Of a stretch of 21,590 nt of DNA, positions 4,162 to 19,692 are shown piece by piece. The stretch lies in the IMG/VR virus record IMGVR_UViG_3300029977_000039, positions 1 through 21,590 of that record; one strand, given 5' to 3'. Source of the DNA: a virus. The position numbers were made by a program, and so were the translations under genes. Below the pieces are notes generated by a model. That model ran no database searches, had not been told where the DNA came from, and saw only the letters and a list, made by a program, of their open reading frames with translations. The number at the start of each line of letters is the position of its first letter. The stretch's first letter is position 1.

Positions 4162-5925
4162 CTACAAATCTCCCCACTCAAGACATTTCTGTGCAACATC
4201 AGTATCTGATAAAACGGGTACTCTTCCTACGTTTACGCCAAGAGCGTATAGATACAAATATAAAGAGTGGTTTGTGTAGACTGAGTCGGGAGCTACGGGT
4301 GGCTCACCTACTTTCAAACAATGTGAAATCATGTTCTCTTTTGCAATTATATCATCTGCTTTGAATCCTAATGTTTCGACAACATTATGTACAGCTCCGT
4401 ATGCAAGTAAGTTCCAAATCTCCATTTCTCCTAATCGTTGGCCAGAACTATGACATTCATCATCACAAGGCTGTAATGTCTTAATATGATACGGTCCGTC
4501 TGCACGAGTACTAAACTTTGACTCCACTGTATGTACCAACGCCATGAAATACATAGTGCCATAACCAAAATCTCTCTCAAGTGCGCCTATTCGCCATACT
4601 TTAGTAGGAGATACTCCAAGCAGCTTCATACATTTTCGTATCATCTCTTTTGGTGAACGTGTGTATAGTGGTAACTCTAATGTGAAACCAAATTCAAGTA
4701 GTAGAGCCAATCGTTCCTTCACAGTTAGTTTCAAGTGTAGATATGGAATTGTTCCGTTTGTGATCTTCTCGATTGACTGTAAGAGCTTGAATGCTTCGTC
4801 GTATTTCTCAAACTCGACTAACTCTCGTACTTTTTCTTCTACAACTCTACACACCTCTCCTAAATGCATCTCGAAGATCTGTCCGATATTCATACGAGAG
4901 ATAACACCTAATGGATTTAGAACTAGATCTGGAACCCAACCATCTTTACTTGTTACATAACGATCTGGTACAATTATAGAGCAAACTCCCTTATTGCCGT
5001 GTCTATTACCTAGTTTATCTCCTACACAAAATGAACGAACTACTTTCGCTTGTGCTACTATAACTATTGCGTCTTGATTGCCTACTAACTCGTAGCTCTC
5101 AGGAAAGTATAATGGAGTAACTTTAGCGATTGATGGATCGATAGACGACAGTAAAGTCTTGACAGCTTTCGGTTTGTTATGCTCTTTTATCCACTTAAGA
5201 ACTGTCGGTGATGATTTATGCAAGTCCAAATACTTCTCACTTTTATAATACGTAGACACTCGCTCGATAACTAAGTCTGCATCCGCGAAAATTCTTCGTT
5301 TGTCTACAGAGGTACAAAGAACATTGATCGGATTCTTAGGAGCACTCGTCCACTCGAATAGTATCTCACCTTTCTTATAGAATCTTCCAACTATAGGATA
5401 CTTCATAAGAACTTCGTTAGGTTCTAATATCAACTCGAAAGATTTAACATACTGACTTGTTAGTTTCTGAGCACCACTTTCGCTCACAACAATAGCATCT
5501 TCATAGTTCCAACCTTCGTAAGGAGCGAATACAACTTTCAGATTCGTTCCAGCACAATATCTATCAAACTTTACGGCGGTGTGTTGTGCAAATACTTCTC
5601 CTTCCTTAACAATATCTTGTATAGATACAGACCAAAGTGAGGACGGTATCCTATATAAATAGACTTTACCTGTGGTCAATGATTTATACACAACAACTTC
5701 TTCATTACGGTATAAGATCTGTATATCTTCAGCTGCCTGCTTCAGAAAAGTAGTAAGTTTTGTAACTTCTCGTAAATAAGACGTACTTATGTATGGAAGT
5801 TGCGGATTCACTAAAACTAAACTCTGTCGTAAGAAGTTAGAGGCCATCTGTAGTCTATTACCATCATCATGCGCACAAAATGGTACACAACTTAACGCGC
5901 TACTCAATACCGACTTCATTATCAC
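4162..5925 (-). CDS. RNA polymerase A, beta subunit C-terminal half
   Basis: This 587-aa protein is the C-terminal half of a split RNAP beta subunit; with beta' it forms the catalytic cleft. It begins almost at the bacterial motif IPFLEHDDANR, here VPFCAHDDGNRLQMASN (14-30). Then come GTNLKVVFAPYEGWNYEDA (126-144, cf. GYNYEDA), GDKLGNRHGNKG (302-313, the switch/active-site region with conserved Lys and His), DLVLNPLGVISRMNIGQIFE (333-352), and a clamp-binding region with SSGQRLGEMEIWNLLAYGA (cf. GGQRFGEMEVWALEAYGA of E. coli). It ends in the equivalent of the beta C-terminal helix (LYLYLYALGVNV). The start is GTG at 5925, since GGGAGG lies 7-8 nt upstream; an ATG two codons in is poorly spaced. 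It lies 14 nt after the N-terminal half, the upstream stop TAG merging into the Shine-Dalgarno site, so co-translation is likely. Confidence 0.95.
   Translation of the reverse strand: MIMKSVLSSALSCVPFCAHDDGNRLQMASNFLRQSLVLVNPQLPYISTSYLREVTKLTTFLKQAAEDIQILYRNEEVVVYKSLTTGKVYLYRIPSSLWSVSIQDIVKEGEVFAQHTAVKFDRYCAGTNLKVVFAPYEGWNYEDAIVVSESGAQKLTSQYVKSFELILEPNEVLMKYPIVGRFYKKGEILFEWTSAPKNPINVLCTSVDKRRIFADADLVIERVSTYYKSEKYLDLHKSSPTVLKWIKEHNKPKAVKTLLSSIDPSIAKVTPLYFPESYELVGNQDAIVIVAQAKVVRSFCVGDKLGNRHGNKGVCSIIVPDRYVTSKDGWVPDLVLNPLGVISRMNIGQIFEMHLGEVCRVVEEKVRELVEFEKYDEAFKLLQSIEKITNGTIPYLHLKLTVKERLALLLEFGFTLELPLYTRSPKEMIRKCMKLLGVSPTKVWRIGALERDFGYGTMYFMALVHTVESKFSTRADGPYHIKTLQPCDDECHSSGQRLGEMEIWNLLAYGAVHNVVETLGFKADDIIAKENMISHCLKVGEPPVAPDSVYTNHSLYLYLYALGVNVGRVPVLSDTDVAQKCLEWGDL
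4170..4175 (-). promoter_or_regulatory. Shine-Dalgarno site deciding the hub-like gene start
   Basis: GGGGAG on the minus strand lies 10 nt before the ATG at 4159, within the last codons of the RNAP A beta gene. It lies downstream of the alternative GTG at 4177, which has no such site, so it supports the shorter start. Confidence 0.6.
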
Positions 5926-5930
5926 ATCTT

Positions 5931-5940
5931 CACCTCCCTC
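5931..5940 (-). promoter_or_regulatory. Shine-Dalgarno site joining the split beta genes
   Basis: GAGGGAGGTG (minus strand) uses the last G of the N-terminal half's TAG stop and lies 5 nt before the GTG at 5925, GGAGG itself being 7 nt away. It supports GTG rather than the ATG two codons later and suggests that one ribosome train makes both beta halves. Confidence 0.65.
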
Positions 5941-7127
5941 TAATTCTTCAATACAAAAATACCATTACGCTGTAACTCACAATCAGCAGCAAACTGTAAC
6001 TTAGCACCAATTCCTTCGTCGTCCGGAGTATCATATATACAAATATTACCGCCCATAGTGTAGTGTACATCTCGCATATCGTATGGAATGTACTCAAGTG
6101 GAACAACAACCTTATATCGTAGAGATATCTCCTTAAACATATTCGTTTGGTCAAAGTACTCAAAGAGACGTTGAAGTTGGGGTGAAGTAAAGAGACGTTT
6201 CAAAAGAAAGTCGGAAGCAATCTTGACTTTCTTTTGATATTTCTGCTGTTGCTGGTTCTCCCTCAGTTTCTCATAAAGAGCTATCATTATCGTCTCATAA
6301 GATCTTACACGCTTGAAGTACAGGTTACTACCCGTTAATGTCGTCTTCGACTTTCCTTCCGTTATATTTATAGTAAAATAAAGTAGATCTTTCACAGTCT
6401 GTACATTGTAAATCTCTTTCGTAATAGGATCCAACAACTCACGCTCAATAAACTCAACTACATCTGTATTCAGTTTAGGAACTTGTTTTAGCTTCGCTTT
6501 TGCTTTAATAGGTGTCCGAACCATCGAGTTTACCACTAATTGTTGAATTGGTGTAAGAAACTCGTAGCGAGTAGGCAACTTTACACTCAGATTTGGTTGA
6601 GATACTAAAGAACGTGCGAACTTCGAATCAACTTTTTCAGTATCCACAAACTCAAAATACAGTCCGTTCTGAATGAGCTCATCTTTCGTAAAGATATTGT
6701 AGAGTAGAACCCAAAAAGGAACTTTCTCGTCTTTAATCCTTAGTATACCATTTTCATCTCCGACGACAGCAAATAATGAACCTTGCCATCTGATCAACAG
6801 TTTATCCTCGGGAATATAACGATAGGATACTAACTGATCGGTTAACTCATTCACTAATATCCACGCTATATCATTAACAATGAAAACATCATCCTCATTA
6901 GGTATAGGTAACTTAAACGAAAATTGTTGAGAGTTCTCAGTTTCGCACGTAACAAGTACCACATTAGTAAAATGAAATCCGTATGTAGAATGCTGTACAG
7001 AAATCGGCCGCAACTTCCACGTCTTCAACTTATCCTTACAACTATCTGCAAACCACTCTAGGATACGTGGTAAGAAAGAGCTTAAACAAACCGACACTTC
7101 ATCTTTTCGCCATTCTAATACATTCAT
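5940..7127 (-). CDS. RNA polymerase A, beta subunit N-terminal half
   Basis: This 395-aa protein is the N-terminal half (protrusion and lobe) of the split beta subunit. Residues 73-100, with PIPNEDDVFIVNDIAWILVNEL, correspond to the bacterial stretch around GTFIINGTERVIVSQL. The last 40 residues, with GGNICIYDTPDDEGIG, correspond to RVCPIETPEGPNIG, so the chain stops just past the TPEG motif and the next gene resumes just before HDDANR. About 80-100 residues present in E. coli beta between these motifs are missing. Between the two landmarks the sequence is diverged, with basic segments (e.g. KAKAKLKQ) fit for nucleic-acid contact. The ATG at 7127 overlaps the beta' stop in an ATGA junction with only a weak GAGAGG upstream, so translation is probably coupled. 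I am sure of the family from the two landmarks and the context. Confidence 0.88.
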   Translation of the reverse strand: MNVLEWRKDEVSVCLSSFLPRILEWFADSCKDKLKTWKLRPISVQHSTYGFHFTNVVLVTCETENSQQFSFKLPIPNEDDVFIVNDIAWILVNELTDQLVSYRYIPEDKLLIRWQGSLFAVVGDENGILRIKDEKVPFWVLLYNIFTKDELIQNGLYFEFVDTEKVDSKFARSLVSQPNLSVKLPTRYEFLTPIQQLVVNSMVRTPIKAKAKLKQVPKLNTDVVEFIERELLDPITKEIYNVQTVKDLLYFTINITEGKSKTTLTGSNLYFKRVRSYETIMIALYEKLRENQQQQKYQKKVKIASDFLLKRLFTSPQLQRLFEYFDQTNMFKEISLRYKVVVPLEYIPYDMRDVHYTMGGNICIYDTPDDEGIGAKLQFAADCELQRNGIFVLKN

Positions 7128-10027
7128 ACACTTGCCTCTCGTGACATACTTACTTTACTTTTTTCAACTATATCCGCACCAAAATCCTCTTGAAGTCCTC
7201 TTAGATTCGACTGAATCAGATATTCTAACGGAGAAATTTTACTCTCACCTTGCGACGATAACATACAAGTAAAGAATTTTCTAAAGTTCTCAAAACACAA
7301 ACTCAATAACAAACGTTGATGTGGTAGATTTGCTACACTCTCTAGTCTTACCTGTTTGTCTACAGCAAAATCCGTAAGAGAAAAGCGGAGTGCTTGATCC
7401 GTTCTAGTTACATCCCGCAACCGTTCACTCCACAAAACTTCAAAGTGAATAGATAAGAGTTGTTGGTATCTAGCATACATCTCTTCTAACTTCATAAGTT
7501 GGTTCAGAGCGTCGCCTAGTGTAGTCACATACGTGCTATTGAGAAGTCTAGATACGTGTGAAAGATCGGTAGCCAGATCTGTTGTCTTAACAGAGATAAC
7601 AAAGAGAGGCGTTTGAGGAGGTAACATATCTTTGTCGGTGTCTAGCAGCCATCGTGTGCCTTCCGAAATCGTTATCACAGAGATATCCGTATCTGTATGT
7701 AGCTTGACGTCAAACTCTTCGATCACGTATCCCGCGGGATCAACAGGAACACTGGAAGGCAACTCAATTCTTACAGGTTGGTTTGTTACAACAATATCGT
7801 CATCTGTAATATCAACACACGCAGGTAGACTCATAAACTTAGTATCTGTAGCTGCGCCTCCTAAATGGAACGTACGCATTACTAGCTGTGTAGCAACTTC
7901 GGAAATACATTGTGCACTAATTATACCTACAAACTTAGATCTTCCCCAATCATACGGATAACACTTCTTGCAGAAATCAACAGACTTACACCCAATAGGA
8001 GATCTTAATCTTACTTCTTGGTCTATGAGCGAAGAGACGCTCTCATATGTAACATAAGTTCCGTCATCTAAATATCGTCCAATAATTGATTTGTAATTCT
8101 GAGGAGTTACTAAGAAAGGAAGATAGATATTCGTACCACAATCGTCTGTATCTCCAAGCATAAGATGCTGTAGAGAGAACACTAGTTTACGGGCTAGATA
8201 ACCTGATACAGCAGTATTCAATGCTTTATCGACAGCGCCCTTTCTATTTCCTGCAGCAGATCGTATCATCTCAGACGGCGTATAACCCTCAACAAGAGAG
8301 GATAGTATGGGTGGCAAGATCAACTTACCTAAACTATTTCTTACAAGGCCTCTAAGAGCAACAACTTGTGACCACTGTGACAGCTTACCTCTGGCCCCGG
8401 ATTGTAACAATGGAGCGATATTCTCACTCAGTGATAACGTTTCCACAGCATGTTTCGCATCACTACTAAATGCTTTAACTATAGGTGTAGACCACTTCGA
8501 AACATGTTCATACTTACGCTTCCAAGTAAGATCTCCCTCATACAGATCGTCAATCGAGATAGTAACACACGCAGCATACTTCAATGCGTATCGTTGTAGT
8601 TTATGTAGTATGGGCACAATTGTGTCAGACGATGCTTTCGTAATCCAATCTGTAAGCAACTCAGAAATTGTAGACTTCGATAGTTGCTTACTAATAGGAA
8701 TATCCAATAAACTCTCTATATATGCTCTTCCCGCAGTCGTTGTTTTGCCTCTCCAAAGGACAGATGTATGCGGATGTAACTCCTCTAACATGGCATCATT
8801 CGTAACTTCAACAACATTTGTGTCATTTGAACTTACACCATCTTTTGTAACGTACCATAATCCTACAACGATATCTTGTGTGACAGCGTTGAATCTACGT
8901 GAGCCAGGTGCGTACGGATACTGATCAAACGTCATATACGATGCTTCTATCAATGCTGCTCTTGTAAGAGGTGCGTACACAGCCATTGTGTCACCATCAA
9001 AATCCGCATTATAGCCCGGAGTAACAATCATAGGTATACCTATTGCGTCAGCATCTGTACCTATAGGACGGAATGCACGTATCGAAGATAGGTGTAAGGT
9101 AGGCTGTCTATTCAGAAGAATAAGATGGTGTGCGCACAGTCGATCAACAATCTCTTTGATCTCTTCCCGGACAGATAGAGATAAGAGCTGCGGATTTCGT
9201 ATAAACGAATCTACAGCTTCTCTAGCCGTAAGCATTCCTCGAGTTTGAGCTAACTCATTCACAACATATAGCTGAAATAATGATACTAATATTCTGTAAG
9301 GAATCTTCGCAGTATCTGCAGTCAAAGTAGGATCGACAGTTATAACAGAACGCCCTGTAAAGTCATTACGCTTACCAAGTATGCTTTGACGTATCAACCC
9401 TTCCTTCTTTGTCAATTTCTGGATAATCAACTTATACAAAGAAACTGCAATCTTCAGAATCGAGAGTTTCGTAAAATTGACAACTGCTTCGTCATCCGTC
9501 ACAATATACTTTTCTAGAATGTTAAGGATGTTGAGATAGTAAGTATTCAAGCGATCTAAATCCTTTATTCTATTACTCGCTGTAAAAGTAACAGGACGTA
9601 GTGTAGGTGGCAACACTGGTATCTTATCTAAGTAGAGCGGAAACGAACGTTGGAACTGCGCAAACCTAGAAGGATTTGATTGAATATAATCCTCCAAAAT
9701 CTGATATGTCTTAGTGTCTCCAACATTTCGCAAAAGACTAGTCTTGCTAGGAGGCATCAGATAGATGATAGCCATAGGATGAATAATAGAGAAAGGCAGA
9801 TGAATATGAGACATCGTATATCGACGAAGTAGTGAAGGTGCGACAAGTACGTTACACTCATCACATCTCTTACCAAGGTAATCTAAACCTTGTAACTTGC
9901 CGCACTGACATCTATAATCTTTTCTAGGTCCGAAGATTTGCTCAGAGAACAGACCAAAAGGATGGAAGATACCTTTTCGCAAAAGAATTTCAGACGAAGA
10001 TACTTCCCAACTCGATAATATTATCAC
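7124..10027 (-). CDS. RNA polymerase A, beta' subunit (complete, single chain)
   Basis: This catalytic subunit has 967 aa, compared with about 1400 in E. coli, and is intact rather than split as in phiKZ. In order: N-terminal zinc site C40/C42/C55/C58 (YRCQCG...RCDEC) followed by RRYTMSHIHLP; VLPPTLRPV (138-146); lid/switch region LGKRNDFTGRSVITV (217-231); LLNRQPTLH (304-312); catalytic YNADFDGDTMAV (339-350) with Mg-binding Asp342/344/346; RRFNAVTQDIVVGLWY; bridge helix from SGARGKLSQWSQ (543); GNRKGAVDKALNTAVSGYLARKLV; second zinc site C630/C680/C686/C689; and trigger loop TQLVMRTFHLGG with M717, R718, H721. The C-terminal LRGLQEDFGADIV resembles the final DLRGLKENVIVGR of bacterial beta'. 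The GTG start at 10027 has AGGAGG 5 nt upstream. First gene after the only sizeable intergenic gap, so it probably opens a transcription unit with both beta halves. Confidence 0.97.
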   Translation of the reverse strand: MIILSSWEVSSSEILLRKGIFHPFGLFSEQIFGPRKDYRCQCGKLQGLDYLGKRCDECNVLVAPSLLRRYTMSHIHLPFSIIHPMAIIYLMPPSKTSLLRNVGDTKTYQILEDYIQSNPSRFAQFQRSFPLYLDKIPVLPPTLRPVTFTASNRIKDLDRLNTYYLNILNILEKYIVTDDEAVVNFTKLSILKIAVSLYKLIIQKLTKKEGLIRQSILGKRNDFTGRSVITVDPTLTADTAKIPYRILVSLFQLYVVNELAQTRGMLTAREAVDSFIRNPQLLSLSVREEIKEIVDRLCAHHLILLNRQPTLHLSSIRAFRPIGTDADAIGIPMIVTPGYNADFDGDTMAVYAPLTRAALIEASYMTFDQYPYAPGSRRFNAVTQDIVVGLWYVTKDGVSSNDTNVVEVTNDAMLEELHPHTSVLWRGKTTTAGRAYIESLLDIPISKQLSKSTISELLTDWITKASSDTIVPILHKLQRYALKYAACVTISIDDLYEGDLTWKRKYEHVSKWSTPIVKAFSSDAKHAVETLSLSENIAPLLQSGARGKLSQWSQVVALRGLVRNSLGKLILPPILSSLVEGYTPSEMIRSAAGNRKGAVDKALNTAVSGYLARKLVFSLQHLMLGDTDDCGTNIYLPFLVTPQNYKSIIGRYLDDGTYVTYESVSSLIDQEVRLRSPIGCKSVDFCKKCYPYDWGRSKFVGIISAQCISEVATQLVMRTFHLGGAATDTKFMSLPACVDITDDDIVVTNQPVRIELPSSVPVDPAGYVIEEFDVKLHTDTDISVITISEGTRWLLDTDKDMLPPQTPLFVISVKTTDLATDLSHVSRLLNSTYVTTLGDALNQLMKLEEMYARYQQLLSIHFEVLWSERLRDVTRTDQALRFSLTDFAVDKQVRLESVANLPHQRLLLSLCFENFRKFFTCMLSSQGESKISPLEYLIQSNLRGLQEDFGADIVEKSKVSMSREASV

Positions 10028-10083: not shown

Positions 10084-10473
10084 TTACCGCCGTGCGAATC
10101 TAGCCAGCAGTCGTTTCGTTCTATCGTTTTTCTCCAACTGCTCTAGCAATTGTTTATCACGTGTAGTGTCAACAAGAGACATCTTATTTTTCCCAAGTAA
10201 TACAATTGCTTGAGTTGCAATATTGGTGACGACAGATTCATTCTCGGGCTGCTTGGATAAAGAAACAAGAGACTCAACAAGACCGTTAAGTTGGTCGGCA
10301 AGCTCCTGAAAAGTACTCGTTGTAGGCTTAACTTCTCTTTGTTCAACAATCGAGCGAAAAGCGTACTCCAACTCATCGAGAATATATACAGCTTCACTCT
10401 TTGAGATTCGTTTCGTACGAAGTATAGCAATCAGTCGTTGGATCTCTCGTATCTTATTTGTGGGAATCGCCAT
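10084..10473 (-). CDS. small helical protein of unknown function
   Basis: The 129-aa product is soluble-looking, charged and predicted almost all helical, beginning MAIPTNKIREIQRLI, with no membrane segment and a basic C-terminus (RTKRLLARFARR). I recognise no family. The ATG at 10473 has AAGGA 4 nt upstream and overlaps the o-spanin gene by 20 nt; the gene ends just before the RNAP A leader. As last gene of the upstream operon it could be a lysis accessory or a virion helical protein; neither is shown. Coding is supported by the RBS and tight packing, and the other frames here are broken into shorter pieces. Confidence 0.75.
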   Translation of the reverse strand: MAIPTNKIREIQRLIAILRTKRISKSEAVYILDELEYAFRSIVEQREVKPTTSTFQELADQLNGLVESLVSLSKQPENESVVTNIATQAIVLLGKNKMSLVDTTRDKQLLEQLEKNDRTKRLLARFARR

Positions 10474-10813
10474 TTTTCCTTACTCCACAAATGTTTGTAA
10501 CCGCAATAGCAAAATCGTTTAAGTCGTCTGCGTAATTCCTTAACAATCGAATGTTTAGGTATAAGCGGCGTGCGTCTTCTGCTGTCACACAATAATTGCC
10601 TTCGGAATCTTTGAACCAATTAATATCGGTACTCAGCTGCGGCCGTTCTGGTATCGATGGAAGTACTACTGGAGTCGGTTCTATTGCTACGTGTGTCTGA
10701 GAAGTCGTTGAACATGCTGCGCAGAAGATCAAGCAACTCATCACTACTACTAACTTGCTGACCGCCTTTACCATCACCCGCTTCTGAGCTAGTATTGTTT
10801 TCAATACTAACAT
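10454..10813 (-). CDS. Rz1: o-spanin lipoprotein (Rz1-like), nested with i-spanin
   Basis: This is the outer-membrane half of the spanin pair that fuses inner and outer membranes at the end of lysis. The 119-aa chain has a basic n-region (AQKRVMVKAVSK), a hydrophobic core LVVVMSCLIF and CAAC (31-34), giving lipidated Cys34; Cys at -3 of the lipobox is atypical. The mature part is proline-rich (PTPVVLPSIPERPQ), then WFKDSEGNYCVTAEDARRL, a type seen in Rz1-like proteins. The gene starts inside the i-spanin gene in another frame: 194 nt overlap, with 166 nt extending past its stop. The ATG at 10813 has AAGGAGG at 6 nt; an internal ATG at 10774 gives a shorter, more typical signal peptide but only weak RBS, so I prefer 10813. 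Confidence 0.85.
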   Translation of the reverse strand: MLVLKTILAQKRVMVKAVSKLVVVMSCLIFCAACSTTSQTHVAIEPTPVVLPSIPERPQLSTDINWFKDSEGNYCVTAEDARRLYLNIRLLRNYADDLNDFAIAVTNICGVRKNGDSHK

Positions 10814-11114
10814 TACCTCCCTCCTTTTTCATACAAAGTTTTACAAGTGTCTTAATCTCTGTTTCTTTTCTCTTAACTATCTTTTCGTAATACACTTTCA
10901 GCTCACCCGCATTTTTCACTAAGTGTTCTTGCTGACTCTTCAAAGCTGCAATCTGTTCTGCCGCACGTTGTAACTCTATATTCTTAGTCTCAAGATTAGC
11001 TGTAAGCGTATACGTCTTCTGTTTGTAGTACAATAAGCCAGCACCTAAACCAAGAACTATAAGTAGAATTGCAAATACACTTGCAATCTTTAGATTAGAT
11101 AAACTAGGTAACAT
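10620..11114 (-). CDS. Rz: i-spanin (Rz-like inner-membrane protein)
   Basis: This is the inner-membrane partner of the spanin complex. The 164-aa product has one N-terminal membrane segment (about residues 8-26, ASVFAILLIVLGLGAGLLYY), then a periplasmic coiled coil (about 35-95, with heptad-like ETKNIELQRAAEQIAALKS) and a Ser/Gly-rich, probably flexible tail. This N-in, C-out plan and the following nested lipoprotein gene identify the pair. The ATG at 11114 has a G-rich GGGGGTGG upstream and lies 10 nt after the transglycosylase stop. Residues MKKEGGN (near 95-101) are encoded by the bases that also form the Shine-Dalgarno site and start of the o-spanin gene. Length is typical of Rz proteins. 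Confidence 0.87.
   Translation of the reverse strand: MLPSLSNLKIASVFAILLIVLGLGAGLLYYKQKTYTLTANLETKNIELQRAAEQIAALKSQQEHLVKNAGELKVYYEKIVKRKETEIKTLVKLCMKKEGGNVSIENNTSSEAGDGKGGQQVSSSDELLDLLRSMFNDFSDTRSNRTDSSSTSIDTRTAAAEYRY
10816..10826 (-). promoter_or_regulatory. Shine-Dalgarno site of o-spanin inside the i-spanin gene
   Basis: On the minus strand AAGGAGGGAGG lies 2 nt before the ATG at 10813 (6 nt if the first AAGGAGG is used). It decides the o-spanin start over the internal ATG at 10774. The same bases encode Lys-Lys-Glu-Gly-Gly of the i-spanin. Confidence 0.75.
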
Positions 11115-11124
11115 TCACCACCCC

Positions 11125-11772
11125 CTACCAAAATATGTACCTCGTTTCGAAGCTATCGACACCTAAAAATCTCTTATACCGACTACCGTAGTCGTAAATC
11201 TTACGACTGTAACTACTATTTATATCGCAACCATTTCTCCATTGCCCACAAGAACCATCTGACAGTCTCCACACACAAACATCTTTCTCTTTACATAGAG
11301 ATCTCCAAAGATCATATGAACAAACACTCGCTTGCCGAACTTCTCTATTTAGCTTACCTATACTACGGTTGTATCCTTGATAAGTGATCCACAACTTTTT
11401 TGTGTCTGTTGGAGTTTTACATATATCTATAACGTTCTTATACACTTGAAACAACATATATTTGAATGCACCTATATGAGTAGCAGAATCTGTTGCATAC
11501 TTACCATACCCAGCTTTCATCAACTCCTCATCCCACCACTTCGGAGTTATTTGTGCAACACCTATACTCCCATGACCATCCTTACTTCGAATCCACACAC
11601 AATTACTTTCAGTCTTTAGTACTCCAATCGAATACCAATAAGGAAAATCTACACCAAAGTATCTAGTGGAATACTTCTTTACATAATCACCGTAATTATT
11701 GATACAGTAATCACGTGCATCCCCTATCGATACTATACACATCATTAATAATAAAATGCAAATGAACTTCAT
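11125..11772 (-). CDS. secreted lytic transglycosylase (SLT fold), probable endolysin
   Basis: This 215-aa protein should cleave peptidoglycan glycan strands. A Sec signal peptide is plain: MK, hydrophobic core FICILLLMMCIVSI, and a likely cleavage after GDA (residue 19). The goose-lysozyme/SLT motifs follow: SIGVLKTESNC with catalytic Glu55, GSIGVAQITPKWW (68-80), and a later tyrosine-rich YQGYNRS. The C-terminal third is cysteine-rich (CSYDLWRSLC, DVCVW, GSCGQWRNGC), suggesting disulfides in the periplasm. It sits between the holin-like gene and the spanins, so it is most simply the endolysin; export by Sec would make it independent of a large-hole holin. The ATG at 11772 has no clear Shine-Dalgarno site and begins 6 nt after the holin-like stop, suggesting translational reinitiation. 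A virion-associated transglycosylase is a less likely alternative. Confidence 0.85.
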   Translation of the reverse strand: MKFICILLLMMCIVSIGDARDYCINNYGDYVKKYSTRYFGVDFPYWYSIGVLKTESNCVWIRSKDGHGSIGVAQITPKWWDEELMKAGYGKYATDSATHIGAFKYMLFQVYKNVIDICKTPTDTKKLWITYQGYNRSIGKLNREVRQASVCSYDLWRSLCKEKDVCVWRLSDGSCGQWRNGCDINSSYSRKIYDYGSRYKRFLGVDSFETRYIFW

Positions 11773-11778
11773 ACTGTT

Positions 11779-12051
11779 CTATGCTTTTGAGTAGATAAGA
11801 TAAGAACCCGCAAGCATAACAAGAGCAAGTGTCTTTCTCCATTTATCTCCTTCTGATAGCCAATCGATCTTACCAATAAACGCTCTTCTAGAAACATACC
11901 AATGCAGAGTAGCTAAACTATAAAGAAAAATGCTACGTAGTGTTCCTTCCTGAGAAGGTAGCATTTCTTGATACAAACCAAGTATGGCAACAATACCCAA
12001 TACTAAAAAGATAAGTAAATCTACACTAAGCCTACTAAGGATTGACTTCAT
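11779..12051 (-). CDS. holin-like small membrane protein
   Basis: The 90-aa protein has three hydrophobic segments: about 11-27 (LLIFLVLGIVAILGLY), 38-53 (LRSIFLYSLATLHWYV) and 72-87 (TLALVMLAGSYLIYS), separated by charged loops (RRAFIGKIDW, EGDKWRK). Size, membrane pattern and position directly before a muralytic enzyme and spanins fit a phage holin or pinholin, which sets lysis time by permeabilising the inner membrane. Because the downstream enzyme carries a Sec signal, a depolarising pinholin role is possible; this is inference. The ATG at 12051 has AAGGAGG 7 nt upstream and overlaps the preceding gene by 17 nt. Confidence 0.65.
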   Translation of the reverse strand: MKSILSRLSVDLLIFLVLGIVAILGLYQEMLPSQEGTLRSIFLYSLATLHWYVSRRAFIGKIDWLSEGDKWRKTLALVMLAGSYLIYSKA

Positions 12052-12574
12052 TTCTGAACCTCCTTACTCTTTTGATTCTACGTAATTGTGGTCTACTACA
12101 AAATAGACACGCATACGGATAGATACCTGCGGCCATATTGAACTCACTCTGAGACTTCATCTTCACAAGAAGAAAGTTCTCGTTCGATAGCTTTACAAAC
12201 GCATACGAACCTGACAAAACTTCTCCTGAGAATTTCACGGCTAAAACATTCTGGTTATCTTCTATAACCTCAAACTGACCTCTATCTAGTATCTTAACTA
12301 TGCCTTTCCCGTAACCTTCACGAATCTCACCTTTGAAAGTCAACCATTTTAGCTCATGATCTTCCGTTCGGAATAGCCCAACACGAGATACTTTACCTGA
12401 CATCAGCTGATCTAATTTTCTGGTGGCCCAAGATATAAGTACACATTGTCGTGATTCACTATCGTAAGCTTCAAGTCGTAAATCGAAGTGCTTACCCGCA
12501 CGTTCGGCGTCATGTAATTGTACAACAAAACGACGTTTACATGTTGAGAAATCTACACCTCTTAGAAGTCCCAT
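12035..12574 (-). CDS. stand-alone LigD-type 3'-phosphoesterase domain (LigD_N)
   Basis: The 179-aa product matches the N-terminal phosphoesterase of bacterial LigD, which trims 3'-ribonucleotides and 3'-phosphates at DNA ends. Seen directly: RFVVQLHDAERAGKHFDLRLE (15-35) aligning with the LigD pattern 'FVVQ.H.A..LHYDLRLE', giving metal-site His21, His29, Asp31 and Arg33; VSRVGLFRTEDHELKW with His73; FKGEIREGYGKGIVKILDRG with Tyr88; and closing strands VKFSGEVLSGSYAFVKL and NFLLVKM. Compared with the usual pattern there are two extra residues between the first two histidines. The tail (about 140-179) is basic with a CLFC pair and is not part of the domain. No ligase or polymerase domain is fused. 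The ATG at 12574 has GGGGAGG 4 nt upstream. Its placement between virion and lysis genes is unexpected for a repair enzyme. Role in the phage (end processing, genome circularisation, RNA-end work) is unknown. Confidence 0.8.
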   Translation of the reverse strand: MGLLRGVDFSTCKRRFVVQLHDAERAGKHFDLRLEAYDSESRQCVLISWATRKLDQLMSGKVSRVGLFRTEDHELKWLTFKGEIREGYGKGIVKILDRGQFEVIEDNQNVLAVKFSGEVLSGSYAFVKLSNENFLLVKMKSQSEFNMAAGIYPYACLFCSRPQLRRIKRVRRFRNEVNP

Positions 12575-13155
12575 GTGGCCTCCCCTCTAAAAACGACTAC
12601 AAGATTGCCTGTAGTATCTTCTATCGTATTTTTATCTACCTTTACGTGTAGAAAACACTTTGAGTGTAATGAATACCGTAAACCAAACTTGAACTTGAAA
12701 GCAACATTAAAGCCCAAATCTATGCTCTCAATCTGCTCTGCTAGAAAAAAGCAATCAAGAAAATTAGATGGTAATACTACTTGTTTATGGCCGTGTCCGT
12801 TGTACGTACTAATAGTTACATGCGGAAGCGAAGAAAGCTGACTACATGCTAACCAATACTCCTTTATATTCACACGCGTAAATGTGGGAGGGCTAAATGA
12901 GAACTCGTGTGTAGTTAACAGGTTAGGAGTCACTAACACAAACGGCTCAACTTCTATAGGGCGATTCATATATTGCTTCTTCTGCTCAAAATCGGCTCTC
13001 TCTTCTTCAGTCACAACTTCAGCTCTATAAGTATTACAAGATGTCGTCAGATACAGAAATATACGTCCATCGGTATCTTCAAAACGGATAGGCAGATTCA
13101 AGGATCTGCGCAACCGTAGGATCTCTGCATAAGATACATCAATAATATTCATCAT
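12562..13155 (-). CDS. unknown protein, possibly virion-associated
   Basis: The 197-aa protein has no recognised family. It starts MMNIIDVSYAEILRLRR, with a predicted mixed alpha/beta fold, no membrane segment and no zinc or nucleotide motif. Stretches such as NLLTTHEFSFSPPTF and NGHGHKQVVLPSNF look like beta-rich structural protein. The ATG at 13155 overlaps the upstream stop (ATGATGA) with no good Shine-Dalgarno site, implying coupled translation; its end overlaps the LigD-type gene by 13 nt. Neighbours on the other side are a membrane protein and a neck-like protein, so a structural role is plausible but not shown. Confidence 0.75.
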   Translation of the reverse strand: MMNIIDVSYAEILRLRRSLNLPIRFEDTDGRIFLYLTTSCNTYRAEVVTEEERADFEQKKQYMNRPIEVEPFVLVTPNLLTTHEFSFSPPTFTRVNIKEYWLACSQLSSLPHVTISTYNGHGHKQVVLPSNFLDCFFLAEQIESIDLGFNVAFKFKFGLRYSLHSKCFLHVKVDKNTIEDTTGNLVVVFRGEATWDF

Positions 13156-14194: not shown

Positions 14195-14899
14195 CTAAAC
14201 GACTTCTACGATTGTATTAGGCGGTAGAGACTGTAGTTTCTCTATTATTCTATCTCTTAGTTCAGTTGCTTTTGTTGAAAGTGCATCCGCATTCAATGTG
14301 ATCTCGCCAAACGGAGTATTTAGTGTCGCATACTTCGACCTCATATCCGCTATAACGTCATATATGTCTGCAAGAGCAAGATCACAAAAATCTCGTATAA
14401 AGTCTACGGGTATCGTACTTAAATCGGAAGGATGATTCTTCTCGTATCTAACATAGAATGTCGCTGTAAATCCTGTTAGTCTTGTAGGATAGATATATAG
14501 TTTATTTGGTGGTACAAACTCCCATTGGTGTCTAAAGAGTGAGTATCTCTCTACAGTACGCGCTTTCATAATGTCCATAATTTGGTTTGGCAGATCTTCG
14601 AAACTGGGGATGAACATCCAGGGGTGTCCTACGACGAATGCACTCGACATTGGCAACACAACATCCTTTACAGTTATCACACCGTCTTCATCATTCAAGT
14701 AATAAAGTGTAGGATTCTGAGGATCTCGATCTGCGGCGGTTAATTCCTTGAAAGCGACTGTAGGTACATACGTAGAAAATGTAGGAATTGTATGATGGAC
14801 AACAATATCCCATAACATATCATCCGATATCTCAATACCCAGATAAGGATGACCTAGCCTCGTCTTGATATAATTGAGCAAAAATGTTTTTGTTAACAT
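14195..14899 (-). CDS. putative neck/head-tail connector-type virion protein
   Basis: The 234-aa product begins LTKTFLLNYIKTRLGHPYLGIEISDDMLWDIV, a pattern (short amphipathic helix, 'RLG.P...EISDD.L.D.V') that recurs in connector or completion proteins of large myophages. It continues with beta-rich segments and GHPWMFIPS, then WEFVPPNKLYIYPTR, common in the same group, and ends in a helix with LRDRIIEKLQSLPPNTIVEVV. No catalytic motif is visible. The ATG at 14899 comes 1 nt after the stop of the AEP-like gene (TAG-T-ATG) with no strong Shine-Dalgarno site, so coupled translation is likely. The structural call is from pattern memory and moderate at best. Confidence 0.5.
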   Translation of the reverse strand: MLTKTFLLNYIKTRLGHPYLGIEISDDMLWDIVVHHTIPTFSTYVPTVAFKELTAADRDPQNPTLYYLNDEDGVITVKDVVLPMSSAFVVGHPWMFIPSFEDLPNQIMDIMKARTVERYSLFRHQWEFVPPNKLYIYPTRLTGFTATFYVRYEKNHPSDLSTIPVDFIRDFCDLALADIYDVIADMRSKYATLNTPFGEITLNADALSTKATELRDRIIEKLQSLPPNTIVEVV

Positions 14900-14900
14900 A

Positions 14901-15518
14901 CTATCTTAATGTTCGGAAGATCTCACGATCAAACTCATACATCTTTGTAGGAACTACAAACTTCTGTAGTACGCTTGCAAAATGAAGTTCATCTTTTATA
15001 TCATCTGGCTTAATCCCAAATCTTCTTATTGGTACAGGAACTTGCAGAAGTGCAAGTCTCCGAATAGGTAAATGACGAATAGACGATCGAATATCGAGAG
15101 ACGTATAAGATTTATATCTACGTGTAAACAAGTTTCGTAACTTCTCTATGTCTCGTAATCGAAGACCACTATAACTCGCACAACTATACAAATGATAGCC
15201 ATCCTTTGTCTCTTCGACATACCAATTGTAGGTATCTATGATTTCACTTTCACAAAAACGTATAAGATCTACTTTACTCTGCTCACCATCAAAATCAAAT
15301 GTAGGCTGCCACACTAACATACCTTTATATTTGTAGAAGGGGGAGACATGTAACTCTATCTTCTGACTAACAAACTCTCTCCATTTCGAGCTTACGCTCT
15401 CAATAAACGCATCCACCGTTTTCTGATACACGGGCATAGTTGCTACATACTTATAGTAAACTACGAGCGACTCAGGTGTAGCAACATACGAAGAACTCCT
15501 GGAGAGAGTAAGAGCCAT
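14901..15518 (-). CDS. AEP (archaeo-eukaryotic primase)-like protein, minimal Prim-Pol candidate
   Basis: In 205 aa, three spaced motifs match the AEP catalytic core: motif I WQPTFDFDGE with Asp75 and Asp77; motif II ETKDGYHLYS with His109; motif III YTSLDIRSSIRHLPIRR with Asp142 followed by basic residues, as in primases where the third Asp precedes an Arg/Lys-rich nucleotide site. Spacings (32 and 33 residues) suit a small AEP. An active AEP would make primers or fill DNA ends; LigD's polymerase domain is in the same superfamily. No zinc knuckle or helicase domain is fused. The ATG at 15518 has GGAGGAG 6 nt upstream and overlaps the previous gene by 58 nt. The context is virion and RNAP genes, not replication genes. 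It may be an inactive or structural homologue, or the motif match may be coincidental; structure prediction would decide. Confidence 0.5.
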   Translation of the reverse strand: MALTLSRSSSYVATPESLVVYYKYVATMPVYQKTVDAFIESVSSKWREFVSQKIELHVSPFYKYKGMLVWQPTFDFDGEQSKVDLIRFCESEIIDTYNWYVEETKDGYHLYSCASYSGLRLRDIEKLRNLFTRRYKSYTSLDIRSSIRHLPIRRLALLQVPVPIRRFGIKPDDIKDELHFASVLQKFVVPTKMYEFDREIFRTLR

Positions 15519-15829
15519 ATGTTCTCCTCCATTATTGTCTTAATTACGGCGATAAACTCCACATCCTCTAAAGACCTTATATACTCACTAAGCTCAGGAT
15601 ATGTAGAGTCTAACATACTAGCTACATTCATACGTACACTATACTTCTCAATCACTCTACCTAATAAATCACAAAAATGGTCTATGTAATAACTTATTGA
15701 CTGTGTCAACGCCAGCGCAGTATCAATACCGTGTGTATCTTCGAAAGCAAATACCTTATCGTGAACAAACGAAAGTGTAGTTGTTACTAGAGCATACACT
15801 TGCTTAAGATCGTATGCTACTCTCGTCAT
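15461..15829 (-). CDS. small helical protein coupled to RNAP B beta, unknown
   Basis: The 122-aa product begins MTRVAYDLKQVYALVTTT and is predicted helical throughout, with moderately hydrophobic faces (IDTALALTQSISYYI, EENIWLLLSPGVLRMLL) but no clear membrane span. I recognise no family. Its ATG at 15829 overlaps the beta stop in an ATGA junction, so it is translated together with RNAP B beta, and its end overlaps the AEP-like gene by 58 nt. Coupling makes an RNAP B accessory role a fair hypothesis (phiKZ-type enzymes use extra small or non-homologous subunits), but no sequence evidence beyond position supports it. Confidence 0.75.
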   Translation of the reverse strand: MTRVAYDLKQVYALVTTTLSFVHDKVFAFEDTHGIDTALALTQSISYYIDHFCDLLGRVIEKYSVRMNVASMLDSTYPELSEYIRSLEDVEFIAVIKTIMEENIWLLLSPGVLRMLLHLSRS

Positions 15830-18800
15830 TTCAGCTCTACACCTAAAGAGACTAGAATCGATTGTAGATATTCTCTGTTTCTATTAGGAATCGAGAGCTC
15901 AGCTAAACTAACACTGCCATTCTCAACTATCTTATTGAAGATCTGAGGACCCACATCTGCAGGATAGGCAAACAACTCCTTTGTGACAGCATCTAAATCT
16001 CTACCTAATAACGTCCAAGACATTTGCTCATCGATCTTCTGTCCTCCAACCCGTGATCTACCTCGTATTGCGTGACCTAACGTCTGATATCCACCTATTG
16101 CTCTCGCTGACTCCTTCGAGCTCGATTCATGATATAACTTGTATACATACATATAGCCAATAGGAACTTCTGTATAGCTTTGTGTGTCTTTCCAAATCAC
16201 ATGAGATGTTGTTGAGATACCAAGATCACGTACAATTTTACGCAAGTCATTCCATGTTGGTTCCTTGAACATAGGAATCACAAGGGGAACAAACGCTTTC
16301 TGTTTTGCTTTACTGAGGCCATAAGCAACAACAGCTTTATTAGATGTCTTATCCAGAGCTGTAAGAATACGCTCAAGTGTAGTAATAGCTTTCTGAGAAT
16401 AATTCTCTTTCATAAGCAAATCATTATAGTAACGAACGATATTCGAAGCATATAACTCTAACATTTGCCCTAAGTTCATCCTACCAACAACACCTAATGG
16501 ATTCAGTACAAGCTCAAAAGGTCTTCCTTTCTCATCTCTTGGCATCTCTTGTAGAGATTGTATCTTACATACCACACCTTTATTACCATGCCGATTTGTT
16601 AGCTTATCTCCCAATGTCATCGGTGCTTTCCATTTTATGTAAAAGTAAATGACACAACCATAACGATCACTCTTGTAAGTCAATGCATTACGTACTGTAA
16701 AGTCGTCTGCAGGTAACTGTTTAACATAATCTGCCAGAATCTTGTTTGCGGAAAGATAGTTCGCAGTTGTATGTACCACCACTCTCATAACATCTACATC
16801 TTCCGGAACTCGTACAAACACTTTTCGCTCTTGCGTCTCAAATACAACATCTTGTTTCTCAAACTCATCAAGTAGAGTATCTACACGCAATCCTTTTCCA
16901 GTCAGAACTACAAGAGCATCTCCTTTCTTAATTTTCTTATCTGATGCGACATGTAGTAACACACTATCTGAAGGGAGTTTGAGTACAACTTTGTTACCTT
17001 TTGTAACCGTAAGTCTTTCTGCTGCACTTTCACTAATCATTACAGCATCTTCGAATACGTCCAATGAAGGTATAAATGCAGTATACAAATTCGTACCTAG
17101 AGTAAGATCATCTCTGAAATGAAGTTCTTCAGCGGTAGCAATTATGTCTCCTGCCTTTACCTTCGCACCAATCTTTATAGTAGGCATCCAATGTACTACG
17201 AAATTGTGACTTGTAACGAAAGGTGTAAGACGGAATTCAACCCTTCTATTTGATGGAGTTTTAATCACAATTACATCCTCAGGCTTAATACTCTCAACAA
17301 CTCCATCAACAGTTGTACGAATATCAAGTCCAGCCACTTTTCGTATTGCACTCTCGATACCTGTAATTACGTATGGTGGTTCAGCATACGTCAACGGTAC
17401 AGCTTGTCGAACATGGTTTGCAGCCATCTGCAATCTATTACCATCATTAAATCTTGCAAAAGGAACAGTTGATACAGCCCAACTAAAAGGATAAGATGTA
17501 GAGGTTGTGTCAAGTTCAAGTGTAGGTGTAATTCTACTCGTAAGTGTTAGTCGCTGAACTACTCCGATAGTGTCACCACTAGGTGTATCAACGGGATCTA
17601 GAATACCTATATAAGACCGATGGAAACTTCTCGTCATTGGAGTAGCAAAACTTCCTATACCTACATTCGTCACACTACATAGATCTCTAAGAGACTCTAA
17701 AGGATTACCTTCAGAAGCAGATATCAACCAACCTTCGCGTAATAGATATCTAATCAACGCAAATCTACCAATAGGCAATTTCTCTATAGACGGCATACTA
17801 GCAAAGAATCTAGCTAGCATACGAATCAAAGCCTCATCTAGACCCGACGTACGTACACGATAATTGCTCAACTCAGTTGATAACGTCATTTCACCACTCA
17901 TAGCAAGCTCACACATATACTTCACAACATCTAGTGGTGTTGATAGATCTAGAGATTTAGCTTCAAGTGCAAATACGGTGTCGAATATCAAACTAAACTC
18001 TCTAGCAAGCTTCCGTAAGATGCTAGTATCGCGAGTCTTAGATACTAAGAACTGAGACCATTCACTTTGATCTAACGTCTTAGGAGTCTTCCCACCGATC
18101 TCAAGTCCATTGAACAGAAACTCACACAACGCAGAATCTATGACTAATGTATCTTTTCCTATCTTTAGCTCACGTTCTGCGAGCAAATGTTTTATACTAA
18201 ATGTGTTCAATATATCTCGTAACGGAAACAGTGCAAGTAAAACTTGAATCAGCGGTAGTCTATTACCTAACATGTTCAAGTAAAATGTAGTACGAGATTG
18301 GACACGCTTTAGATAAACCTCGAAGAAAGTAACGGTGTTGTTAAACTTTGCGGTGAGTAGCCTAGGTACGGTTATTGTTTTAGGCACAAGCACATGTCTA
18401 AAGATATACTTGTTTCCGTTATAATAGAAGAAGCCGTCTTTATCTATACGAGGAATGAAGAGCTCCACAGCTACTCGTTGATTCGTCTCTTCGTTTTTGA
18501 AGATGAATGTGCCTAAATCTATTGTAGACCGTGTAACTTCTGTAGTAGATGTATAAGGCTTCACGGAGATATCTTCTACTACCCAACCGATACCCTTTGG
18601 CAGTCGAAAAGATTCGAGAGCAGCTTTGATGTGACTATCCTTCCTCGTCAATACGCCTACAGTAACAGGAGGACCGAACGTGTTAGGTATACGTGTTGAC
18701 AGCTCCGTCCTCGCTTTCACAAGTTTTAACGTAGGCGTATCTAGTTTAGCAACAGAAGAAATGAGTTCTTTTGTTTCTTGTGGAGTTATCTCTCTTTTCT

Positions 18801-19692
18801 TACCTGTGAGTGCCCACGTAAGAGCTTTCCCTACCACAGTATCCTTCACTCGAGATGTCGTACTGGGCTCCTCAAGAAAGTCACCAACAACATCAATAGC
18901 ATCTTTTACTATCGAATCAACTATAGCTTTCTTACTTATCGGTAAGTTCGAGAACTTACGAGTTGGAATACCTACAGACGTAGTCTTTGGAGGAGAAAGT
19001 GTAGCAAGTTCTTCTGGAGCGTGCTCTCCATGAATAACATTTCTGATAAATGTAGGCACACGCGGAAACACACTTCTATTATGTTTATAAACACAGAAAA
19101 ACGTGATCTTATTAGATGCTTGATCATAGACACCTACAAGCATACCTTCTATACCTTTCACACTTACATCGCTCAAGCTCTCGTCTTCACTCTCTACATC
19201 AACGCCTAATAAGTAAGTGCAAAGATAGAGAACGCTTCTACGTAGTGTCGTAAGATTCACGTTCATCTCGTTCCATTTTTTCGTATTCGTGAGAAATACG
19301 AACCAACGATACGGACGTCTAAACTCTCTACTGTAACGAAGCAACGCATGCGCAAAAGTTTTATACGGAGATCGCACAAAGTTATCTCCGTAGAATGTGA
19401 CAGCTTGTTTAAGAATAGGCTGTAGATCAAATATTGCGCTCAATTTTGTAGAATTCAACGTATTTAGATTTCGAACTACACGTAGCTTACTTACAGAAGG
19501 AACACGAAGTGGCCATGTACGATTTAATGTGACAATAGGAGGAGCATACAACAACTTAGCAAACCGAAAGTGTGGTGCAAGATTCGAGATTGGTGGCATA
19601 TCTATGTCAGAGAGAACGATCAACATATTATCGTATGGATCTACATAGATATTACTTGTAATCATTCCTAACCGTAACGATGACAATCTCAT
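15826..19692 (-). CDS. RNA polymerase B, beta subunit (single chain with long N-terminal extension)
   Basis: This 1288-aa protein is a complete, unsplit beta subunit. Landmarks: DKDGFFYYNGNKYIFRHVL (418-435) corresponds to the bacterial GTFIINGTERVIV; DPVDTPSGDTIGVV (699-712) to the PIETPEGPNIG motif; TVPFARFNDGNRLQMAANH (742-760) to IPFLEHDDANRALMG; GTNLYTAFIPSLDVFEDAVM (866-885) to the GYNYEDA region; LGDKLTNRHGNKGV (1027-1040) and ELVLNPLGVVGRMNLGQMLE (1060-1079) are strongly conserved. The C-terminus keeps a diverged GGQKIDEQMSW (canonical GGQRFGEMEVW) and ends like beta (LQSILVSLGVELK). The first landmark lies about 340 residues later than in RNAP A, so roughly residues 1-340 are an extension. 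The ATG at 19692 overlaps the beta' stop as ATGA, with AGGGAG about 9 nt upstream. The enzyme is one of two RNAPs in this window. Confidence 0.95.
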   Translation of the reverse strand: MRLSSLRLGMITSNIYVDPYDNMLIVLSDIDMPPISNLAPHFRFAKLLYAPPIVTLNRTWPLRVPSVSKLRVVRNLNTLNSTKLSAIFDLQPILKQAVTFYGDNFVRSPYKTFAHALLRYSREFRRPYRWFVFLTNTKKWNEMNVNLTTLRRSVLYLCTYLLGVDVESEDESLSDVSVKGIEGMLVGVYDQASNKITFFCVYKHNRSVFPRVPTFIRNVIHGEHAPEELATLSPPKTTSVGIPTRKFSNLPISKKAIVDSIVKDAIDVVGDFLEEPSTTSRVKDTVVGKALTWALTGKKREITPQETKELISSVAKLDTPTLKLVKARTELSTRIPNTFGPPVTVGVLTRKDSHIKAALESFRLPKGIGWVVEDISVKPYTSTTEVTRSTIDLGTFIFKNEETNQRVAVELFIPRIDKDGFFYYNGNKYIFRHVLVPKTITVPRLLTAKFNNTVTFFEVYLKRVQSRTTFYLNMLGNRLPLIQVLLALFPLRDILNTFSIKHLLAERELKIGKDTLVIDSALCEFLFNGLEIGGKTPKTLDQSEWSQFLVSKTRDTSILRKLAREFSLIFDTVFALEAKSLDLSTPLDVVKYMCELAMSGEMTLSTELSNYRVRTSGLDEALIRMLARFFASMPSIEKLPIGRFALIRYLLREGWLISASEGNPLESLRDLCSVTNVGIGSFATPMTRSFHRSYIGILDPVDTPSGDTIGVVQRLTLTSRITPTLELDTTSTSYPFSWAVSTVPFARFNDGNRLQMAANHVRQAVPLTYAEPPYVITGIESAIRKVAGLDIRTTVDGVVESIKPEDVIVIKTPSNRRVEFRLTPFVTSHNFVVHWMPTIKIGAKVKAGDIIATAEELHFRDDLTLGTNLYTAFIPSLDVFEDAVMISESAAERLTVTKGNKVVLKLPSDSVLLHVASDKKIKKGDALVVLTGKGLRVDTLLDEFEKQDVVFETQERKVFVRVPEDVDVMRVVVHTTANYLSANKILADYVKQLPADDFTVRNALTYKSDRYGCVIYFYIKWKAPMTLGDKLTNRHGNKGVVCKIQSLQEMPRDEKGRPFELVLNPLGVVGRMNLGQMLELYASNIVRYYNDLLMKENYSQKAITTLERILTALDKTSNKAVVAYGLSKAKQKAFVPLVIPMFKEPTWNDLRKIVRDLGISTTSHVIWKDTQSYTEVPIGYMYVYKLYHESSSKESARAIGGYQTLGHAIRGRSRVGGQKIDEQMSWTLLGRDLDAVTKELFAYPADVGPQIFNKIVENGSVSLAELSIPNRNREYLQSILVSLGVELK

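Follow-up and report, generated by a model that had tools for sequence, protein, structure and literature searches.

A stand-alone LigD-type 3'-phosphoesterase with a substituted catalytic tyrosine in phages that carry multisubunit RNA polymerases

LigD-type phosphoesterases in cells and phages

LigD serves as the model enzyme of bacterial end joining; the mycobacteriophages Omega and Corndog bring their own Ku and use the LigD of their host. In the Pseudomonas aeruginosa enzyme (Pae LigD), the 3'-phosphoesterase (PE) is fused to a ligase and a polymerase and has an N-terminal arm (N-arm); His42, His48 and Asp50 are its Mn ligands, Arg52, His84 and Tyr88 contact the phosphate, and Tyr88 mutants are inactive (PMC8656161). 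Residues 14, 15, 21 and 82 are required for 3'-phosphatase activity but are dispensable for ribonucleoside removal (PMC8656161). Across bacteria, archaea, fungi and plants, all six catalytic residues are described as strictly conserved, and the N-terminal extension is missing from some cellular PEs (PMC4797286). In archaeal NHEJ, PE, Pol and Lig are separate, co-operonic proteins, and the PE resects displaced 3' ends (PMC4797286). LigD-type PEs go unmentioned in a survey of 224 jumbo phages (PMC7824862).

Here we describe a PE encoded in the window, a stretch of 21,590 nucleotides from IMG/VR virus record IMGVR_UViG_3300029977_000039. This phage PE has the same fold as the PE of Pae LigD (3n9b, Z 16.4) and shares five of the six catalytic residues with it, but has neither the fused ligase and polymerase nor the N-arm. 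With the archaeal stand-alone PEs of Korarchaeum cryptofilum (3p4h), Methanosarcina barkeri (3p43) and Methanocella paludicola (5dmp; Z 18.5, 18.3 and 15.0, respectively) it has in common a compact barrel with no N-arm or a short one, the metal triad, and the equivalents of Arg52 and His84. Whereas these enzymes are cellular and keep the catalytic Tyr, the phage PE has a Trp; it also carries two additional residues between the metal histidines, its loop after LRLE is longer, and its C terminus bears an extra tail. The archaeo-prokaryotic NHEJ split operon (Mpa PE, Pol, Lig and Ku; PMC4797286) resembles the phage arrangement in having separate PE and Pol-type genes in the same operon together with an ATP-dependent ligase. 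The phage set differs in that it shows no Ku match, its AEP (primase-polymerase)-like protein is smaller (205 aa) and falls below sequence-profile detection, its ligase is distant, and the genes are phage-borne. Like Omega and Corndog, the phage group of the window places bacterial-type NHEJ parts in a phage, but what it brings is a PE, an AEP-like protein and a ligase, with no Ku seen.

Table 1. Features around the PE gene in the window
Feature	Coordinates	Strand	Evidence
Rz1-like outer-membrane spanin, overlaps Rz	10454..10813	-	phrog_456 E=4.1e-4 (weak)
Rz-like inner-membrane spanin	10620..11114	-	phrog_739 E=2.3e-4 (weak)
Secreted lysozyme/transglycosylase-like protein, 215 aa (ES...GVAQITP)	11125..11772	-	Inspection; no significant profile match
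Holin-like hydrophobic protein, 90 aa, overlaps PE end by 17 nt; ribosome site AAGGAGG	11779..12051	-	Holin by inspection only
Stand-alone LigD-type 3'-phosphoesterase (PE), 179 aa	12035..12574	-	PF13298, AF2 model, residue map, dN/dS
Unknown protein, 197 aa, end overlaps PE start by 13 nt	12562..13155	-	ORF list; no Pfam match
Membrane protein, 342 aa, function unknown; equivalent directly before PE in L121	13152..14180	-	ORF lists
Virion structural/head-completion protein	14195..14899	-	phrog_18911 E=2e-30
AEP (primase-polymerase)-like protein, 205 aa: D75xD77, H109, D142, P151-x-R153	14901..15518	-	Motifs, AF2 fold
RNA polymerase beta-like subunit, set 2, one piece, 1288 aa	15826..19692	-	PF00562 98 bits

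Fold and active site of the window phosphoesterase

The PE gene reads on the minus strand (12574-12035), the plus strand at these positions containing many stops, and a strong ribosome site, GAGGGGAGG, precedes its ATG. An initial annotation had placed a stand-alone LigD-type PE at 12035-12574, and both its coordinates and its assignment hold. The profile search that it proposed as a check gave a significant, full-length match (PF13298, profile 1-107/107; 51.3 bits against a curated cut-off of 31.1, E=1.4e-13), and PF13298 is the sole Pfam domain in the 179 residues; the ORF carries no ligase or polymerase domain and is not a three-domain DNA ligase D, with PE, polymerase and ligase in one protein. 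TIGR02777 also matches (E=7.8e-19), at 68 bits, under its equivalog cut-off of 144. The closest solved relatives are the archaeal stand-alone PEs and the Pae LigD PE, with phmmer finding PDB entry 3p4h at E=7e-15. An AlphaFold2 (AF2) model built from 39 sequences has a core pLDDT of 93-98 and aligns with six solved PE entries at Z 12.5-18.5, the next unrelated entry reaching Z 3.6; the superposition on 3p4h has an rmsd of 1.7 over 116 residues. PHROGs yielded no family matching the PE, and BFVD no match at E <= 0.001. By family, fold and residue map, the window ORF is a genuine LigD-type PE.

Residues Gln40, His42, His48, Asp50, Arg52 and Ser61 of Pae LigD map onto Gln19, His21, His29, Asp31, Arg33 and Ser48 of the window PE, and Lys66, Arg76, Glu82, His84 and Tyr88 onto Lys53, Arg64, Glu71, His73 and Trp77. 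The metal triad (His21, His29 and Asp31) is complete, and Arg33 and His73 of the phosphate-coordinating set are kept, as is the equivalent of Glu82. The active site is nevertheless incomplete: Trp77 takes the place of the phosphate-coordinating tyrosine, which leaves five of the six catalytic residues. The initial annotation had listed His21, His29, Asp31, Arg33, His73 and Tyr88 as active-site residues. The first five are the counterparts of Pae His42, His48, Asp50, Arg52 and His84, but its Tyr88 is the tyrosine of the YGxG motif (Pae Tyr100) and shares the number 88 with the catalytic residue by coincidence; the true position lies four residues past His84. Overall, the earlier observation is thus partly confirmed, with corrections. 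The position of Pae Tyr88 is a Tyr in all 81 cellular PEs sampled and likewise in all PEs of the other viral contigs found first. The cellular PEs were retrieved by patterns that favour His42 and the SWA motif but do not include the Tyr88 position.

The N-arm (Arg14, Asp15 and Glu21 in Pae LigD) is absent as well: the ORF begins 13 residues ahead of the barrel, and the ribosome site confirms this start. Judged from these residues, the window PE should have weak 3'-phosphatase activity, and because the arm that phosphatase activity needs (PMC8656161) is missing, such a role is less likely than the trimming of 3'-ribonucleosides or flaps. For the change from Tyr to Trp we envisage two outcomes: either the indole NH would serve as hydrogen-bond donor and keep catalysis going, or substrate preference would shift. 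It could also mean lost activity, since mutating Tyr88 inactivates Pae LigD (PMC8656161), and whether Trp77 supports catalysis is our main doubt. A phage subfamily in which one of six catalytic residues is swapped while five are held offers a natural test of the tyrosine's job.

Spread, neighbourhood and partner genes

A scan with the phage beta' subunit returned 80 related contigs. Among the 36 related contigs tested, all from uncultivated phages with multisubunit RNA polymerase, 15 encoded a PE above the Pfam cut-off; since the group was picked for its beta' similarity and consists mostly of fragmentary contigs, this figure is not a frequency. The distant phage PEs score 40.6-89 bits against PF13298. 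The gene occupies the same place in three sister contigs, and comparison with the sister contig L002 (PE identity 89%), gives a dN/dS of 0.134, similar to that of structural and polymerase genes, with no difference at active-site residues. Within this sample the PE gene is under purifying selection, and this, together with its presence in 15 of 36 contigs, means that it is not a stray. A pseudogene was rejected on the dN/dS value. A host gene introduced by mis-binning was rejected too: the PE sits at one and the same position, flanked by phage genes, in four contigs of the same phage group, and the PE of L121, whose beta' is only 50% identical, is syntenic. The L121 PE also has Trp at the Tyr88 position and lies directly ahead of Rz-like and Rz1-like genes. 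A tblastn search of 50,697 phage records with five PE queries, which divergent copies may escape, found nothing; the plasmid matches were to cellular-type LigD on large rhizobial plasmids and similar.

Across 17 aligned rows of the phage group, the Tyr88 position is Glu in nine, Trp in four, Tyr in two (L193 and L148/L200), and Gln and Asn in one each. His48, Asp50, Arg52, Ser61 and His84 are invariant in these rows, and Glu82 and Gln40 are often replaced in distant phages. His42 appears lost in L148/L200, but this is an alignment effect, because an insertion displaces the FVIQQH strand that bears it to 135 residues before the rest of the PE. The insert measures about 130 residues (residues about 33-165) and separates the strand with His42 from the His48 motif. 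Most PEs of the group have no N-arm, and nearly all have the 2-residue insertion between the two metal histidines, which is absent in 81 of 81 cellular PEs. To ask whether the RAG insertion is the mark of a single viral lineage, we compared trees: without constraint, the window PE was placed apart from PEs found in giant ORFs, but a tree that kept all viral PEs in one clade could not be rejected and had a slightly better score (p-AU 0.57).

These giant multidomain PE proteins, in L102, L100, L098 and L099 from other phages, have as partner domains DNA ligase, a weak LigD_Prim-Pol match, DJ-1, ASCH, topoisomerase IB and helicase. A single ORF of 3475 aa in L102 combines ligase, the weak LigD_Prim-Pol match and PE; L099 joins ligase to PE, and L100 joins PE to topoisomerase IB and ASCH. 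The Tyr is retained by the giant-ORF PEs, several of which also have the N-arm. In L101 (IMGVR_UViG_3300034152_000949), inspection of a 3183-aa ORF suggests a PE into which an intein is inserted, immediately ahead of the second metal histidine (...VSNS/HFDLRLE).

The initial annotation had noted a holin-like gene after the PE, and a 90-aa hydrophobic product is encoded next downstream (Table 1), although its identity as a holin is by inspection only. A link to lysis or virion release is not favoured by the distant phages. In 12 such contexts (L218-L229) the order is mostly FEN-like 5'-3' exonuclease, phrog_18911, RuvC-like resolvase, PE, sometimes a rubrerythrin-like gene, and ribonucleotide reductase; the phrog_18911 homologue upstream of the PE in the window thus recurs there, as in L220. 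The lysis neighbourhood is therefore a local feature of the window, since distant phages place the PE among replication and recombination genes. The window also holds two multisubunit RNA polymerase gene sets on the minus strand (4162-10027 and 15826-21539). Set 1 (7124-10027, 5940-7127 and 4162-5925) has a one-piece beta' and a beta split in two, and the second beta', in set 2, is cut by the window end. The terminase is T4-like.

Upstream in the same operon lies a gene for a 205-aa protein that is likely an AEP, as judged from motifs and a predicted fold. The residues of its hDhD, xH and hD catalytic motifs (Asp75, Asp77, His109 and Asp142) are invariant in four phage lineages. Its AF2 model is of modest quality (pLDDT 73.7, from a shallow alignment of five sequences), and all of the top 50 rows of a VIA-align comparison with the PDB were AEP primases or PrimPols (Z 6.5-8.3); the polymerase domain of Pae LigD (2fao) scored Z 6.6 and the Methanocella NHEJ polymerase (5dmu) Z 6.5. 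Foldseek ranked primases high at non-significant values (E >= 0.05). Pfam and PHROGs gave no match to this protein, and tblastn against the 50,697 phage records, again open to escape by divergent copies, found nothing. The AEP homologue adjoins the PE with an ATGA overlap in L193, and in L148/L200 it is fused C-terminal to the PE in a 516-aa protein. An AEP profile matches 4 of 40 contigs, exactly the four lineages with the PE near beta'. Where AEP is present, Tyr or Trp occupies the Tyr88 position in four of four cases, against one of twelve where it is absent (Fisher 0.003, relatedness not corrected for).

A 99-kb sister contig (TerL 97% identical) encodes an ATP-dependent DNA ligase of 419 aa with PF01068 and an OB domain; it lies 35 kb away, and none was seen in the 21.6-kb window. 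The ligase and polymerase domains reported as missing by the initial annotation are hence absent from the PE protein but probably not from the phage. Also encoded on this contig are a TOPRIM primase, a RecA-like protein and a family A DNA polymerase fused to a uracil-DNA glycosylase; given the primase, a purely replicative role of the AEP-like protein is less needed. Ku (PF02735) had no match in sets of 11 and 36 contigs, these being fragments of unknown completeness.

Possible roles of the phage phosphoesterase

We propose, with confidence just short of an even chance, that the stand-alone phage PE trims 3' ends as one part of a split, Ku-less, LigD-like end-processing set; we infer both its activity and its partnership. 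In such a set, the AEP protein would fill gaps or extend 3' ends at phage DNA breaks, the PE with Mn2+ would trim surplus 3'-terminal ribonucleotides or displaced flaps to leave a ligatable end, and the phage ligase would seal it. That independent phages combine the same modules (L102 and L099) is a point in its favour. The phage may thus own a LigD-type repair kit in pieces. More broadly, it is possible, though we hold this with some doubt, that the multisubunit-RNA-polymerase phage clade has its own stand-alone PE subfamily with the Tyr replaced (by Trp, Glu, Gln or Asn), and that in one subclade PE, AEP polymerase and ATP ligase would make up a Ku-free split LigD for phage DNA end or gap repair. 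The missing Ku match, the distance to the ligase and the 11 of 15 PE-positive contigs with no AEP match count against a split set, and a late operon would be an odd place for a repair enzyme. If AEP, PE and ligase do cooperate, these phages own a Ku-less LigD-type kit in pieces, which would widen the known phage use of end-joining parts.

The gene order of the distant contexts is what most of them share, and there the FEN, phrog_18911, RuvC, PE and ribonucleotide reductase genes follow one another with no AEP match. The PE might accordingly clean 3' ends generally during phage DNA replication and recombination, together with the FEN-like exonuclease, the RuvC-like resolvase and DNA ligase, and the AEP would then be a chance neighbour in one subclade. 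We consider this unlikely, given the PE-AEP fusion in L148 and the ATGA overlap in L193; moreover, RuvC and FEN cuts yield 3'-OH ends, for which healing is unnecessary. It is rather improbable that the PE is catalytically weak or dead and has become a nucleic-acid-binding or regulatory protein: Trp77 does occupy a site whose mutation inactivates Pae LigD (PMC8656161), and Glu82 and Gln40 are often replaced too in distant phages, but His42, His48, Asp50, Arg52, Ser61 and His84 are invariant, the apparent His42 exceptions in L200 and L101 reflecting an insertion or intein there, and selection has left active-site residues unchanged (dN/dS 0.13).

The position of the window PE between RNA polymerase genes, and its presence in 15 of 36 contigs picked for such a polymerase, would fit an enzyme that processes RNA 3' ends in connection with the two multisubunit RNA polymerases of the phage. 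This co-occurrence is partly built in, however, because the contigs were selected by polymerase; 21 of them show no PE, a profile search run with no positive control found none in ten RNAP-bearing phage records, and other phage ORFs join a PE to DNA ligase or topoisomerase IB, so that we find an RNA-processing role very improbable. Least probable is an end clean-up function in packaging, which the initial annotation had raised, or in release, tied to the lysis genes. The PE lies just ahead of lysis genes in the window and in L121, with overlapping frames in the window, but in other phages it adjoins replication and recombination genes instead, and the ends left by T4-type terminases do not call for a PE. 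Among the 3' clean-up options considered in that annotation, DNA repair is the best supported.

Contig G001 (IMGVR_UViG_3300005573_000071) has, at 72239-74965, a fusion of a uracil-DNA glycosylase domain and a family A DNA polymerase that includes a 3'-5' exonuclease. By inspection, FolE-, QueD- and QueE-looking ORFs lie at about 16.2, 65.7 and 82.2 kb, which suggests 7-deazaguanine DNA modification in this phage. At about 16.9-17.8 and 84.4-93.9 kb, many small ORFs share GPGSNYGYVCGG...STIDRFQFPFDSGT...VGNLSG and form a multi-copy family of repeated proteins.
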